64,000 bases of DNA from Fictibacillus solisalsi (lineage in GTDB: Bacteria > Bacillota > Bacilli > Bacillales > Fictibacillaceae): assembly GCF_900103485.1 (NCBI RefSeq), contig NZ_FNHW01000001.1:1709418-1773417 (forward strand), written 5' to 3'. Within the stretch, counting starts at the first letter, position 1, and each line of letters starts with the position of its first letter. Position numbers and translations under genes: made by a program. Shown here one piece after another: positions 25,735-61,677 of the stretch. The notes below the pieces were generated by a model. That model did no database searches. It was not told the DNA's origin and was given only the letters and a program-made list of their open reading frames with translations.

Positions 25735-25987
25735 AATAACTAAACGTTGAAACGGCGCTGAAAGGGACCAGTACTTCATAGAGCGGCTAAAAGAGAGCGG
25801 AATCCACCGGCTGAAAGATTCTGCAAGCACGTGATGAGGGAACCTATCCCCCGAGCTATCAGGGATTGAACCTGATCGTATGCCTTCGATACAGGCAACA
25901 AGCTGGGCTTTATTATCAAGCCAATTAAGGTGGTACCGCGGATCGCACTCCTCCGTCCTTTTCTAGGATGAAGGAGTGCGTTTTTAG
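25735..25987 (+). promoter_or_regulatory. T-box riboswitch, proline-specific, upstream of proI
   Basis: Stem I carries the AGTA loop-E motif (25770-25773) opposite the specifier loop, whose 3' side reads GGAA-CCT-A; CCT at 25843-25845 is a proline codon. The T-box sequence AAGGTGGTACCGCGG at 25927-25941 follows, then a terminator stem CGCACTCCT / AGGAGTGCG with T5 (25944-25987). Uncharged tRNA-Pro should bind both sites and switch on proI. Together with its promoter this fills the 414-base gap. Confidence 0.92.
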
Positions 25988-26012: not shown

Positions 26013-26855
26013 TTGAATAAAAAAATTGCCTTTATCGGAGCAGGCGCGATGGCTGAAGCCATGATTTCGGGAATGATTGCCAAAAAACTGGCTGACCCAA
26101 AGAACATTATTGTGACAAACCGAATCAATACCAAAAGGCTGCAGGAACTTCAGGAAAACTATAAAATTACCGTTTCGGCATCTGCCGGTGACGCTGCACA
26201 CCAGGCTGATATACTCATTCTGGCCATGAAGCCGAAAGATGCCGAACAAGCCCTGCGGTCATTAAATAAAACGGTTCATGCGGACCATATCATCATCTCG
26301 GTTCTCGCAGGTATTTCAACTGACCTGATTTCGTCACTGCTAGACGCTACCGTCCCTGTGATCCGGGCCATGCCAAACACCTCTGCGGCCATTGGGTATT
26401 CGGCAACCGGCATCGCCGGAGGAAAATTTGCCGAAGTCAAACACATGCAGCTCGCCGAAGAATTGTTCAGCTGTATCGGCACCACAACCTGCCTTCGGGA
26501 AGAAAGCCTGCATGCAGTAACCGGTTTATCCGGAAGCGGCCCCGCTTATGTTTACTATCTTGTAGAAGCCATGCAGCAGGCTGCTTCTTCCATGGATATC
26601 AGTGAAGAGGAAGCACGAGATCTGATCGCCCAGACGCTGCTCGGGGCAGCACACATGGTGAAAATGAGCGGAGATCATCCCCAACAGCTTCGCCAAAAAG
26701 TGACCAGTCCGGGAGGCACAACGGAAGCCGGCATTCAGATGCTCGACCATTTCCAGGTGAAAAAAGCGATTGAGCAATGCGTCAAACGGGCGGCCGAACG
26801 ATCAGAAGAACTTGGCAAAATGTACAGCCAGCCCTCAACCCGAGAAATAGTTTGA
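26013..26855 (+). CDS. proI: Pyrroline-5-carboxylate reductase
   Basis: Last step of proline synthesis: NAD(P)H-dependent reduction of pyrroline-5-carboxylate. 280 residues from TTG with GGAGGG upstream. Rossmann IAFIGAGAMAEAMISG at the start, AMKPKD near 70, VIRAMPNTSAAIGYS near 115 and the family signature region VTGLSGSGPAYVYYLVEAM near 170, with LRQKVTSPGGTTEAG near 225. Controlled by the proline T-box directly upstream, which supports a biosynthetic role. Confidence 0.95.
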   Translation: MNKKIAFIGAGAMAEAMISGMIAKKLADPKNIIVTNRINTKRLQELQENYKITVSASAGDAAHQADILILAMKPKDAEQALRSLNKTVHADHIIISVLAGISTDLISSLLDATVPVIRAMPNTSAAIGYSATGIAGGKFAEVKHMQLAEELFSCIGTTTCLREESLHAVTGLSGSGPAYVYYLVEAMQQAASSMDISEEEARDLIAQTLLGAAHMVKMSGDHPQQLRQKVTSPGGTTEAGIQMLDHFQVKKAIEQCVKRAAERSEELGKMYSQPSTREIV

Positions 26856-56722: not shown

Positions 56723-57550
56723 TTATTTGCCGTCGTCTGCTTTTTTAAACTGTTGGTGTGCTTCTTCCACGACGCGTGAAATCTCTTTGGTTAAAGATGG
56801 TGCACCGTCCACTTCTTTTGCTTTAAGATGGACCAGAAATTCGATGTTTCCTTCGCCGCCAGTGATAGGGGAGTAGGAAAGATCGCTGACGCTATACCCT
56901 TCATTTTGAGAAAACTGGATAATCTCCTCGATAACACGCCGATGAACAGCAGGATCCCGGACAATACCCTTTTTCCCAACGTCCTCTCTGCCCGCTTCGA
57001 ACTGCGGTTTAATCAGAGCGATGACGCTGCCGCCAGGCTTGATGATGGTTTTCAGGACGGGGAGAATCAACCGTAACGAAATGAAAGAAACATCAATGGT
57101 TGCAAAATCCGGAAGCCCCTGTTCCAGATCCTCAGGCTTTACATATCTAAAGTTCGTTCGTTCCATGACAGCTACCCGGTCGTCCTGGCGAATCTTCCAG
57201 GCGAGCTGGTTATAGCCTACATCCAGGGCATATACAAATTCAGCACCGTTTTGCAGGGCACAATCTGTAAATCCACCGGTTGAAGCACCAATATCGAGCA
57301 CTGTAAGACCCTTCAAATCAAGATCAAAAACTTTAATGGCCTTCTCGAGCTTCAGTCCTCCTCTGCTGACATAGGGAATAACATTTCCCTTTACCGACAG
57401 AGGGGCATCCACATCGATCTTTACACCAGGTTTGTCTAATCGTTCACTGCCGGAATAAACCAATCCGGCCATGATAGAACGTTTCGCTTTTTCTCTTGTC
57501 TCGCTTAATCCACGCTCTACGAGCAAAACGTCGATTCGTTCCTTCTTCAT
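56723..57550 (-). CDS. yqxC: TlyA-family RNA methyltransferase (YqxC)
   Basis: 275 residues. An N-terminal S4 RNA-binding domain ([29 protein letters not shown] region) and an FtsJ-like methyltransferase domain with the SAM motif [16 protein letters not shown] near 85 and [10 protein letters not shown] near 150. In mycobacteria TlyA makes 2'-O-methylcytidines in rRNA; in Bacillus the substrate is presumed rRNA. Overlaps the dxs stop by 4 bases (ATGA), hence translational coupling. Confidence 0.92.
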
Positions 57551-59448
57551 GTATACAAACCCTTTTTCCTTTTAGTGGAAACCATTTTTTTAGTACGTTC
57601 AACTACAGCCTCAGTCGTCATTCCGATTTCTTCGAGAAGCTTTGTCACACTGCCGTGTTCAATAAAGCAATCTGGAATTCCCATTCTGTCCACGATGGTT
57701 GAATGGAATTGATGGTCGTTGGCATACTCCAGTACAGAGCTTCCAAAGCCTCCCTGCAGTACCGCTTCCTCAATTGTAAGAATCGGAAGACCTTCCTGCA
57801 GAATTTCTAACATCATCTCATGATCAAATGGTTTAATAAACCTTGCATTTACGACTCTCACTGAAATTCCTTGTTTAGCAAGAATCTCCCATGCTTCCAT
57901 AGCCATAGGAATAGTTGTTCCAAAGGTTAGAATGACAGCATCACTGCCTTCTTTTAGCACTTCCCAGCTGCCAATCGGAATTTCTTCCAAATCAGGATCC
58001 ATTTCGATGCCTATACCGTTTCCTCTCGGATAACGAATAGCGATTGGCCCATCATCGTATCTTACAGCAGTATTGACGAGGTGCTGAAGTTCATTCTCGT
58101 CTTTCCCCATCGCAATGACCATATTCGGCACATGGCGCATAAAGGCAATATCAAAGACACCCTGATGGGTTTCTCCATCGGCACCCACAAGCCCGGCGCG
58201 GTCAATTGTGAGAATAACATTCAAATTTTGTCTGGCTACGTCATGCACAAGCTGATCATAAGCCCGCTGAAGGAACGTGGAATAAATCGAAAGCACTGGC
58301 TTCATGTTTTGCGTGGCAAGCCCCGCTGCCATGGTCATGGCATGCTGTTCCGCAATTCCGACATCAAAGAGGCGGTCAGGGAATTTTTCTGCATATCCCT
58401 GCAGCTGTGAACCTAAAATCATGGCTGGTGTTATAACTACAATGCGCTCGTCGGTTTCAGAAAGCGTGCAAAGTGTATCGCTTACGAGCCTGCTGTAAGA
58501 AGGACCTGCTTGTTTTGCCTTAATTTTCTCGCCAGATTCAATCTTGTATGGCCCTACACCGTGCCAGTGGTCAATGATATCCTGTTCGGCCGGCTTGTAG
58601 CCTTTGCCCTTTTTGGTCAGAACATGAACAATCACAGGTCCCTCTGTCTTTTTAGCATAACGGAGGTTCTCCTCCAGATCTTCCAGATCATGCCCGTCTA
58701 CTGGTCCAAGATAGGTGTAGCCAAGTTCTTCAAAAAACATGCCGGAAACGAGCATGTATTTCAAGCTGTCCTTCACACGTTCGGCCGTAGCTGCGAGCTT
58801 CCCGCCAAAGGCCGGAATTTTGCGGATCAGTGATTCGAGTTCATCCTTGGCCTTATTGTATTTCTTGGCGGTTCTCATACGGCCGAGCACACTGTGAAGC
58901 GCACCGACATTTGGCGCTATGGACATTTCATTGTCATTCAAAACCACGATCAGGTCTTTCTTTTCATGACCGATGTGATTCAAGGCTTCAAGGGCCATGC
59001 CTCCTGTTAACGCACCGTCCCCGATGATGGCAACGACCTTTTCATCGGTTCCTTTCAGGTCCCGCGCAACCGCCATGCCCATCGCAGCAGAAAGCGATGT
59101 GGAGCTATGGCCGGTTTCCCAGACATCATGCTCACTTTCAATGCGTTTCGGAAAACCGCAAAGCCCTTTATATTGGCGCAGCGTATCAAACTGACCGGTT
59201 CTTCCGGTCAGAATTTTGTGGATATACGCTTGATGGCCAACGTCCCAGATAAACTTGTCCTTTGGGCTGTCAAAAATTTTATGAAGAGCAAGAGTCAGCT
59301 CAACGACCCCCAGGTTTGCCCCGAGATGCCCGCCGGTTACGGATAATTTGCTGATTAAAAACTGGCGAATCTCAAGCGCAAGTTTTTTAAGCTGTTCTTG
59401 ATCATAATTCTTTAAGAACTGAGGGTTTTGAATCTCTTCCAGTTTCAT
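57547..59448 (-). CDS. dxs: 1-Deoxy-D-xylulose-5-phosphate synthase
   Basis: 633 residues. First step of the MEP isoprenoid pathway: pyruvate plus glyceraldehyde 3-phosphate to DXP, TPP-dependent. Motifs: [18 protein letters not shown] near 40, [17 protein letters not shown] near 66, TPP-binding [18 protein letters not shown] near 143-160, [11 protein letters not shown], catalytic-Glu region [20 protein letters not shown] near 365-375 and [15 protein letters not shown] near 415. It follows oapA by 21 bases and precedes the tlyA-like gene. Confidence 0.96.
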
Positions 59449-59469: not shown

Positions 59470-60069
59470 TTAGTTCCTTCTCTTTCCTCTCTTAGAAGAA
59501 GTACCAAATAATCTAATCTTTAATTTTTCCTCAAAAAAATATAATAAACGGCCCACTTGAAAAATAATGGCTGTCGCATGATGGATGGCATATGACTTGC
59601 CGAACGCCTTGCCTCCAACAGTTAAGGCCGCAATAATTCCTGTAAATAAAATGGAGATGGTACGTTCAAATAATGTTCCCTCCCCATGCCCAAGCGTCAT
59701 TGTCAATTCAATGATTACGGCAGCAGATGCGGTGCCACTGATAATCCCCGAAATATCACCGATGACATCATTGCAAAAGTTGGAAACCCTGTCCGCATTC
59801 CGGGTGATTAGGATCGCGTGCCGGGAACCCGGAACTTTTTCTGAAGCCATGGCATGAAAAGGCACTTCGTTGGCTGCTGTGGAAGCTACTCCAATAATAT
59901 CAAATAACACACCTATAAGAACAATAATTAACACAATCACCATACCCATGCCCCATGATACACCACTTAGCATCAAGGTGGAAGTCACTGAAAAAATTGC
60001 CGCTAACACGAGGGTGATAACGGCAATGCCTGTACTCCATTTTATCGATTTATGAAATGTATGCTTCAT
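59470..60069 (-). CDS. oapA: OLE RNA-associated membrane protein OapA (DUF21-like)
   Basis: 199 residues, four predicted membrane segments (about 14-34, 40-62, 105-130, 140-160) and a basic C-terminal tail (KIRLFGTSSKRGKRRN). Similar to the DUF21/CNNM domain (STAANEVPFHAMASEKVPGSRHA segment near 62-85) but with no CBS or CorC domain. Position directly downstream of the OLE RNA and upstream of dxs is that of OapA, which binds OLE RNA and carries it to the membrane in Bacillus halodurans. Start ATG has GGGAG 6 bases upstream. If not OapA, it is an orphan DUF21 membrane protein. Confidence 0.82.
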   Translation of the reverse strand: MKHTFHKSIKWSTGIAVITLVLAAIFSVTSTLMLSGVSWGMGMVIVLIIVLIGVLFDIIGVASTAANEVPFHAMASEKVPGSRHAILITRNADRVSNFCNDVIGDISGIISGTASAAVIIELTMTLGHGEGTLFERTISILFTGIIAALTVGGKAFGKSYAIHHATAIIFQVGRLLYFFEEKLKIRLFGTSSKRGKRRN

Positions 60070-60088
60070 AAAAGACTCCCGGATAAAA

Positions 60089-60122
60089 TGAATGCCTTAC
60101 GCTTAACCAGGCGTAAGGCCTC
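60089..60122 (-). other. Hairpin between OLE RNA and oapA
   Basis: GCCTTACGC / GCGTAAGGC, perfect 9-base stem with an 8-base loop, followed on the minus strand by ATTCATTTTATCC. No proper T run, so I read it as a structure separating or processing the RNA from the oapA message rather than as a strong terminator; partial attenuation is possible. Confidence 0.55.
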
Positions 60123-60135
60123 ATTTGAATTATGT

Positions 60136-60748
60136 ATGAGGAGTGGTCATTCAAAAAGTAAACGCTGCGGCTTAGGTCCAGTAGGTTTTCCCAAGAGGAA
60201 ACGAAATTGTCGCCAAATTCGCAGTTTCCCTTTACTTCCTCCTTAACGCAGTCGCCTGGCGTTAGACTGGATTGCCACTTAGTCCGCACTATAATCCTTT
60301 TTGAATGTCGATGGAACAGTCTAGGAGTTTTCCTCAACAGCCCTTCCCCATTTCCCTAGCCTCTTTTGCAGAGATGATTTCATATGGCATAAACAAAGTT
60401 CCGGCGGCCAACCTTCACCCGTTTCCATGTCCATAATCCCCTCAAACTCCACTCAAGGCAGGCTACGCTGCATGTTTCCGCTCAAAGGTTAAGCAGAACA
60501 AAAACAGGTTCAAACCCCATTTCACAGCAAGGTATTAACACACAAGCCGCAAAGATGGGGGCCTCCGCGGAAGCAGGGTCATCGCCCACATGCCATTGTG
60601 GATCGCCCTGCGACCTTAACTCCCAGCGTCAACCCAAGGCTGGGCGCCTCAAGCCGGCACCAGGAACTTCATCGATGTGCCCTTTGGCGGATTTTTAGGC
60701 CCGCCTTCAGGAATGGGAGACTGACTAGAATACTGCACCACTCCAAAA
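60136..60748 (-). ncRNA. ole: OLE RNA (ornate, large, extremophilic RNA)
   Basis: About 610 bases with no credible protein gene, between ispA and a DUF21-like membrane protein gene next to dxs, the known setting of OLE RNA. The ends pair: GGAGTGGT near the 5' end (60737-60744) with ACCACTCC near the 3' end (60140-60147), followed inward by ATTC/GAAT. This closing stem spans 605 bases, close to the known size of about 600 nt. The interior is G+C-richer than the gaps nearby and full of short inverted repeats. Known OLE RNAs form a membrane ribonucleoprotein needed under cold, alcohol and metal stress. Identification rests on context and architecture; I have not aligned it to the family model. 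Confidence 0.85.
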
Positions 60749-60756
60749 TATTTCTT

Positions 60757-60785
60757 ATCATACCATAAAATCGGACAGCCAACAA
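60757..60785 (-). promoter_or_regulatory. Candidate promoter for OLE RNA
   Basis: On the minus strand TTGTTG (60780-60785), 17 bases, TATGAT (60757-60762) with an extended TGG before it. It lies immediately after the ispA stop; start expected near 60749, just outside the closing stem. Co-transcription from ispA is also likely. Confidence 0.55.
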
Positions 60786-60798
60786 TAAGCCCAAAACC

Positions 60799-61677
60799 TT
60801 AATGGTTTCTACTTACAATATAATCTGCTATGCCTTCAAGTATGACTGGTTCTACATTCGCTTTTCTTAGATTTTCTTTAGAGAGTGCAAGTTGGCTGGT
60901 AAGTTGTTCTTTAGCACCGTCGAGTGTGAGCAGCTTGGGGTACGTACTTTTCATATTGTGCTCGTCACTTCCAGCAGGTTTTCCCATCAGCTCTGAGTCC
61001 CCCATCACATCGAGGATATCGTCCTGAATCTGAAACGCTATACCAAGATGCCGGCTGAACGCCCTGAGATGTGACAAATCCTGTTCGGAGGCATTGGCCA
61101 AAATCGCGCCAAAGAGGACGGACACCTCTAGAAGACGACCCGTTTTTCTTTCATGTATGGACTGGAGCTCGCCGAGTGTAAGTTTCTTGTTTTCCGATTC
61201 CATGTCCACGGTCTGACCGGCCACCATTCCTTCAGCTCCGGCTGCTTCAGCCAATAAGGAAAGAAGGGCTACTTTTTGGCCGGAGCTATACGTGCTGCTT
61301 TGGGCAATTACCTGAAAGCTCATGGTCAAAAGTGCATCTCCTGCAAGAATGGCTGTCGCTTCTCCGAACATTTTATGATTTGTGGGTTTTCCCCTTCGAA
61401 AATCATCATCATCCATAGAAGGGAGATCATCATGAATTAAGGAATACGTATGAACCATTTCCAACGCACACGCCGCCTCCAACCCCACTTCAGCTCGCTG
61501 TCCGAAGGCTTCTAGCACGGAGAGTGTTAAAATCGGTCGAAGCCGCTTTCCTCCAGCTTCAAGCGAGTAAAGCATCGCTTCCTTCAGGTTGGCAGGAATG
61601 GCTTTATGCTTTAGATAAGAAGGAAGGTATTCATCAATCAAATGTTTTTTGTCTTTCAGGTAATCTTGTATCTTCAT
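60799..61677 (-). CDS. ispA: Farnesyl diphosphate synthase
   Basis: 292 residues, short-chain prenyl diphosphate synthase making farnesyl-PP. The Asp-rich motifs are visible: YSLIHDDLPSMDDDD near 82-96 (first) and FQIQDDILD near 222 (second), with GGKRLRPILTL near 44 and MVAGQTVDMES near 160. Aromatic residues ahead of the first motif (MVHTYSLIHDD) fit the C15 product. Starts directly after the xseB stop (TAGATG), so the two are coupled. The OLE RNA follows. Confidence 0.95.
   Translation of the reverse strand: MKIQDYLKDKKHLIDEYLPSYLKHKAIPANLKEAMLYSLEAGGKRLRPILTLSVLEAFGQRAEVGLEAACALEMVHTYSLIHDDLPSMDDDDFRRGKPTNHKMFGEATAILAGDALLTMSFQVIAQSSTYSSGQKVALLSLLAEAAGAEGMVAGQTVDMESENKKLTLGELQSIHERKTGRLLEVSVLFGAILANASEQDLSHLRAFSRHLGIAFQIQDDILDVMGDSELMGKPAGSDEHNMKSTYPKLLTLDGAKEQLTSQLALSKENLRKANVEPVILEGIADYIVSRNH

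Follow-up and report, generated by a model that had tools for sequence, protein, structure and literature searches.

The interval between ispA and dxs on the minus strand of the window (the whole 64,000-nucleotide stretch of Fictibacillus solisalsi DNA analysed here) holds a full-length, intact OLE RNA gene (ole) followed by the gene for OapA, a reading of identity and partners that we regard as almost certain. The locus is a canonical and ordinary member of a known RNA family. Our analyses document the RNA itself, the covariation of its structure, the conservation of its promoter, genes or candidates for its published protein partners and the predicted fold of OapA. The coordinates of the features are collected in Table 1.

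The OLE RNA gene and its genomic context

The genes of the locus follow one another on the minus strand in the order xseA, xseB, ispA, an interval of 729 bases, an open reading frame (ORF) of 199 amino acids (aa), dxs, a tlyA-like gene, argR and a last gene that we take, from reading of its ORF, to be recN-like. A gap of about 730 bases between ispA and a 199-residue protein, with dxs beyond it, had been noted in a preliminary description of this DNA, and the measured interval agrees with it. That description had also proposed that the interval encodes OLE RNA and had named the Rfam covariance model beforehand as the check; the model (RF01071) matched by cmscan with 502.5 bits (E 1.9e-144; gathering score 50) over positions 1–616 of 616. 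This is the sole RF01071 match in the 4.8-Mb window genome, and no OLE match was found in 14 control genomes. The isoprenoid-gene context described for the locus was borne out by profile matches to ispA upstream and dxs downstream. Two mechanically called ORFs (95 aa, 60337–60050, minus strand; 64 aa, 60052–60246, plus strand) overlap the region between ispA and oapA, and despite them the interval 60798–60070 is accounted for by the full-length OLE RNA. Elsewhere in the window, a T-box leader at 25749–25963 scored 94 bits, just above its gathering score of 93, and lies upstream of an ORF (26013–26855) that presumably encodes pyrroline-5-carboxylate reductase.

The window copy resembles the OLE RNAs of RF01071 in its 616 model positions, its isoprenoid context, the oapA gene directly downstream and a promoter of its own. 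It differs in that an exact CCTCCT is absent from P6 and in that a hairpin precedes oapA, a feature confined to the genus of the window among the 15 loci compared. We noticed nothing that would place it outside the range of the family. A literature search pairing Fictibacillus with OLE RNA returned no paper; the published GTDB-wide survey of OLE (PMC11332333) probably takes in the Fictibacillus group.

Table 1. Features of the ispA–ole–oapA–dxs locus (window coordinates)
Feature	Position	Strand	Evidence or remark
ispA (farnesyl diphosphate synthase), upstream neighbour	60799..61677	-	NF045485, 413.9 bits, above cut-off
Candidate sigma-A-type promoter	60757..60785	-	TTGTTG (60785-60780), 17-nt spacer, extended -10 TGGTATGAT (60765-60757)
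OLE RNA gene (ole), full length	60127..60757	-	cmscan RF01071; covariation, 56 sequences
Closing stem, 5' arm GGAGTGGT	60737..60744	-	96.0% paired, 6/8 pairs changed on both sides
A-rich loop CTAAAAAT, taken as P4 loop at dimer interface	60691..60698	-	56/56 OLE RNAs
ATCGATGAAG, candidate k-turn 5' strand (OapC site)	60667..60676	-	56/56 OLE RNAs
GGAG, candidate J6/7 strand of k-turn	60563..60566	-	56/56 OLE RNAs; putative assignment
GGCC, self-complementary P9 loop, predicted kissing-loop dimer contact	60406..60409	-	53/56 OLE RNAs
GGCGAC loop, P13 region (OapB site in literature)	60209..60214	-	putative P13 assignment
Closing stem, 3' arm ACCACTCC	60140..60147	-	same covariation evidence as 5' arm
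G+C-rich hairpin between ole and oapA, GCCTTACGC...GCGTAAGGC	60094..60119	-	terminator-like shape
oapA, 199-aa predicted membrane protein, predicted CNNM-like fold	59470..60069	-	DVIGD (DxxxD) at residues 101-105
dxs, downstream neighbour	57547..59448	-	TIGR00204, 942.3 bits

Structure, motifs and promoter of the RNA

The structure of the RNA was examined in an alignment of 56 OLE RNAs, viz. that of the window and those of 55 of 80 named relatives, in which 165 pairs were counted (those of the closing stem and the Rfam pairs as carried over from the match in the window). Standard pairs occupy 87.6% of the cells, compared with 39.6–46.3% when the partners were slid by 1–3 columns; two-sided changes occur at 120 of the 165 pairs (62–77 in the slid controls), the covariation score is 0.359 (0.080–0.130 when slid), and none of 500 shuffles scored as high on any measure. 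Pairing is found in just 41–71% of the cells of helices 6, 7, 9 and 13–16, which fall in length-variable regions that are poor ground for an alignment made from sequence only. Of the 157 pairs of the model, the window RNA forms 142 as standard pairs, and the stability of its predicted fold lies well beyond that of shuffled sequences (z -3.78; none of 20 shuffles as good).

The two arms of the closing stem, GGAGTGGT and ACCACTCC, bound exactly 605 bases, the domain size that had been proposed for them, and the stem is standard in 427 of 445 cells with two-sided changes in relatives at six of its eight pairs; its weak point is the outermost pair, which is unpaired in 17 of 55 cells. The second closing step of the preliminary description, ATTC with GAAT, did not survive this comparison. 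It is a match of letters only, pairing in 153 of 224 cells (68%) because the 5' ATTC is invariant while GAAT varies, and the partner of GAAT lies elsewhere, in the ATTC at 60306–60303, with which it pairs in 217 of 223 cells (97%), with many compensating changes and as in the Rfam model.

All of the literature motifs for dimerisation and protein binding that we checked were found in the window RNA, except for an exact CCTCCT. The assignment of the A-rich loop CTAAAAAT to P4, the loop for which a role in the OLE dimer has been described (PMC12286853, PMC12265935), is our own reading of the sequence. Likewise, the exact placement of ATCGATGAAG as the candidate 5' strand of the published k-turn region (PMC9723947, PMC12286853) is ours. 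The pattern GG[CT][GA]AC is present in 56 of the 56 OLE RNAs, though it is a loose pattern and the whole RNA was searched for it; in the same alignment, 6 of the 9 pairs of helix 24 covary. The P6 of Halalkalibacterium halodurans is reported to hold CCUCCU, a mimic of the anti-Shine-Dalgarno sequence, for the binding of bS21 (PMC12054373), and an exact copy (CCTCCT in DNA) is missing from the window RNA and present in only 3 of 56 P6 regions. According to the same work (PMC12054373), altered mimics that keep conserved G-C pairs still bind, and hence CCUCCU in P6 does not define the OLE family.

Genes or candidates for the published partners OapB, OapC and bS21, which the preliminary description had left unmentioned, are all present in the window genome. 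The OapB gene is a 107-aa ORF in L049 that matches PDB entry 7k9b, "OLE-associated protein B", with E 1e-34, and a bS21 gene is also present. The candidate for OapC is a 94-aa ORF of the L7Ae family located between ORFs that we take to be RpoC-like and S12-like; a second L7Ae match lies elsewhere in the genome, and we assume that the position between rpoC and rpsL marks YbxF (OapC) and not YlxQ.

A candidate promoter at the ispA stop had also been suggested, and it is upheld here as an extended -10 with a weak -35. The -35 hexamer TTGTTG agrees with the consensus at only 3 of 6 positions, and a simple promoter scan, which demands 4 of 6 in each hexamer, does not report the promoter for this reason. 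Of 81 loci, 80 have an extended -10 that agrees with TGnTATAAT at 7 or 8 of its 8 defined positions within the 75 nt preceding the stem core, as against a mean of 11.65 and a maximum of 19 of 81 loci in 20 shuffled sets. It is placed 12–22 nt ahead of the stem core in 75 of these 80 loci and in 63 of them goes together with a -35 that agrees at 4 or 5 of 6 positions, and a stricter fixed -10 pattern was found in the aligned first 30 columns of 47 of the 56 OLE RNAs. A promoter of its own has already been reported for OLE in H. halodurans (PMC9723947). By reading, the hairpin between ole and oapA was recognised, with changes, in 6 of 6 loci from the genus to which the window belongs and in 0 of 9 loci from other genera. 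Its identification as a real terminator was considered and set aside as unsupported over chance, with 2 terminator-like hairpins found and 2.2 expected.

OapA, its joint loss with OLE, and its relatives

The 199-residue neighbour had been identified as OapA in the preliminary description, and its position, the invariance of D101 and D105 in 47 of 47 aligned OapA proteins, its predicted CNNM-like fold and its co-occurrence with OLE all sustain this identification. The DxxxD motif formed by these residues has been named for OapA (PMC11332333). The window protein is like H. halodurans OapA, as far as the described features allow comparison, in being a membrane protein of similar size that carries DxxxD and adjoins ole (PMC11332333, PMC12054373). 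It is intact and shares 97% and 95% identity with its two closest relatives; among the best 80 of 564 matches, a set from which the window's own record may be missing, the closest named relative is Fictibacillus fluitans (95% identity).

The four-helix protein anticipated earlier is matched by an AlphaFold2 model (pLDDT 81.6) with long predicted helices at residues 2–34, 39–65, 92–125 and 133–163 and a further one at 165–183. The four best structural matches of the model (7m1t, 7m1u, 7cff and 7cfg; Z 11.2, 10.8, 9.8 and 9.5) are all membrane domains of CNNM/CorC Mg2+ transporters, and the best Foldseek E-value is 0.035; since helical bundles can reach a Z of about 11 without kinship, the fold match supports a relationship to CNNM and does not prove it. 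OapA is thus like the CNNM/MpfA/CorC Mg2+ transporters (PF01595) in predicted fold and differs from them in sequence, its PF01595 score being 9.8 bits, short of the 28.4 required, and ranking below another of its Pfam rows. Searches of Pfam and NCBIfam at 1e-3 returned no match, and no solved relative was found by sequence up to E 10. OapA also differs from MpfA in length, its 199 aa leaving no room for the CBS and CorC domains of that protein, neither of which the Pfam scan lists.

An OapA-like ORF lies directly downstream of OLE in 30 of 30 fetched loci of the family, that of the window included, and 80 of 80 named loci have OLE upstream of OapA, these being the best 80 of 564 confirmed matches, a set that stops short of distant OapA proteins. 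Within the order, OLE was detected in 174 and an OapA-like protein in 175 of 299 genomes, under stricter filters in the OLE survey by which weak matches may be lost. When the two lists were compared by eye, a single genome was discordant (G237), which is 62% complete and in which the OapA-like hit begins at base 36 of a contig, i.e. at the contig edge. The link between OLE and OapA has already been published, and our counts for the order repeat it (PMC11332333).

Within the family, OLE is present in 32 of 34 genomes and an OapA match in 33 of 34, one of the latter being a 38-aa remnant with a stop (G001). The two genomes lacking OLE are G001 and G022, the second of which has no OapA match, and they have lost OLE and oapA together. 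Their ispA–dxs spacings are 563 bases (G022) and 377 bases (G001), compared with 1350 in the window, and no OLE match was obtained by cmscan near dxs in either genome at E up to 1. The remnant regions lie at L055:3397-3959 (G022) and L056:1124-1500 (G001), and both retain colinear pieces of oapA between ispA and dxs. In a comparison with the window interval, a colinear stretch of 16 nt from the 3' end of OLE survives in G001 (15 of 16 letters identical, E 0.017), and no OLE piece was found in G022. No oapA was found in G022 by tblastn at 1e-3; blastn recovered two colinear pieces, 34 nt and 37 nt long, inside the oapA position (E 1.5e-5 and 0.002). The TTGTTG-17-TATGAT arrangement of the window promoter is also still present in G022 directly after ispA.

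More than one OapA-like match was found in 9 of 175 genomes, each of which has a single OLE. Seven paralogue loci were read, viz. those of G028, G109, G183, G190 and G283 (of the nine multi-copy genomes, the others being G066, G110, G136 and G193) and of G026 and G031 from the family, and all seven ORFs keep DxxxD inside NDVxGD. Five such paralogues lie at L045:7981-8637, L046:7543-8175, L047:8148-8783, L140:4191-4808 and L141:4285-4914, with one OLE elsewhere in the genome. A cmscan search for a divergent second OLE near the paralogues found none, with E allowed up to 1 for L045–L047 and up to 0.5 for L140–L143. In four of the seven loci the neighbours are cardiolipin-synthase-type or mercury-resistance genes. 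In G028 and G031 (L045, L046) the paralogue is directly downstream, on the same strand, of a cardiolipin-synthase-type gene (TIGR04265 above cut-off in G031; phospholipase-D domains in G028), and in G183 and G283 it faces merA in convergent orientation and merR lies on the far side (TIGR02053 and TIGR02051 above their cut-offs). The two merA-side genes (L142:3969-4562 and L143:4373-4957) come from genomes of two different families.

The window genome has the ole-linked OapA only. The paralogues away from ole show that a gene for an OapA-type protein can stand apart from OLE, and they were found only in OLE-carrying genomes (nine of nine multi-copy genomes among the 299, plus three of the family's 34). 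In a literature text search that returned two papers, the word "paralog" refers, in the passages shown, to MpfA, to YlxQ or to a title in the references, and not to OapA. OapA may belong to a larger family of small membrane proteins of CNNM-like type, members of which can be encoded away from OLE next to genes for metal or lipid functions and whose paralogues join the OLE particle in trans, a suggestion that we consider rather unlikely; if it is true, paralogues acting in trans, e.g. as heterodimers with OapA, would give the OLE particle stress-specific versions.

Besides OapA, the window genome carries three CNNM/MpfA-type genes above the cut-off (G000:C8:19835-20416, C6:31151-31732 and C4:834782-835366), which coexist with OLE and OapA. 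Their presence means that OLE/OapA is not the only such system in this genome, and the coexistence runs against the tendency reported for Bacillota. One to three CNNM proteins are found per genome across the 34 genomes of the family, and a gain of MpfA after the loss of OLE was not seen, the two CNNM matches of G022 and three of G001 being inside the range of their sister genomes. For the order, 19 of 174 OLE-carrying and 19 of 125 OLE-lacking genomes were sampled in list order, non-randomly, with G022 left out as already counted; the former carry 42 CNNM/MpfA genes (1–6 each) and the latter 55 (2–4 each). Ten below-cut-off matches, all at OapA positions, and one match of 29.4 bits, to a 224-aa frame in G047 that is presumed to be OapA, were dropped before this count. 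The figures of 42 and 55 imply that replacement or exclusion between MpfA and OLE is weak in this order. The anticorrelation published across Bacillota, for which CBS and CorC domains were also required (PMC11332333), is thus weak here in a count made without that requirement.

Proposed function and alternative explanations

Transcription of ole most likely starts about 7–10 nt past the extended -10, at the base of the closing stem; read-through from ispA probably contributes as well. By analogy with published work on the OLE RNAs of H. halodurans and clostridia, from which we infer membrane location, dimerisation, protein binding and a role in stress, the RNA of about 600 nt would fold as in the Rfam model and dimerise via its conserved loops, a dimer of OapA would hold it at the membrane, and OapB would bind the P13 region, OapC the k-turn and probably bS21 the P6 region. 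The particle would most likely aid adaptation to membrane and ion stress (cold, alcohols, Mg2+ and poor carbon sources), with OapA as a CNNM-like part that handles divalent cations and the RNA as a scaffold or sensor.

The structured stretch sits between genes of the same strand, and in the genus to which the window belongs a terminator-shaped hairpin precedes the oapA start, as might be expected if it were mainly a long cis-acting leader controlling oapA and dxs and not a stand-alone RNA. However, the known OLE RNA of H. halodurans is abundant and about 630 nt long (PMC9723947), the structure closes before oapA with covarying ends, and the hairpin, confined to that genus among the 15 loci compared, is no commoner than chance, so that we consider a leader highly improbable. 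The relatives G022 and G001, without an OLE match and with oapA reduced to remnants, raise the question of whether OLE is decaying and non-functional in this strain too. The 142 of 157 standard model pairs of the window RNA, the presence of every motif checked except the exact CCTCCT, and an intact 199-aa oapA with 97% and 95% identity to its closest relatives argue against decay, to which we give almost no credence.

The biochemical step of an intact OLE particle is another matter, and we regard the cation-handling version of it as about an even proposition. The predicted OapA fold, nearest to Mg2+ transporters, and the two OapA paralogues that adjoin mercury-resistance genes point towards cation handling. 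It is a little short of evenly probable that the identity is the same and the main function a different one, viz. a ribozyme, control of translation through bS21 or a general stress hub; the published binding of bS21 and the bTOR proposal (PMC12054373, PMC12265935) and the retention of CNNM/MpfA genes alongside OLE (42 versus 55 in the two sets of 19 genomes) are in line with such a function.

The window copy is canonical and adds little alone. Its relatives provide test material, in the form of a promoter kept in 80 of 81 loci, two genomes that lack OLE and OapA paralogues encoded away from ole, and they allow tests of the role of OapA with and without OLE RNA.
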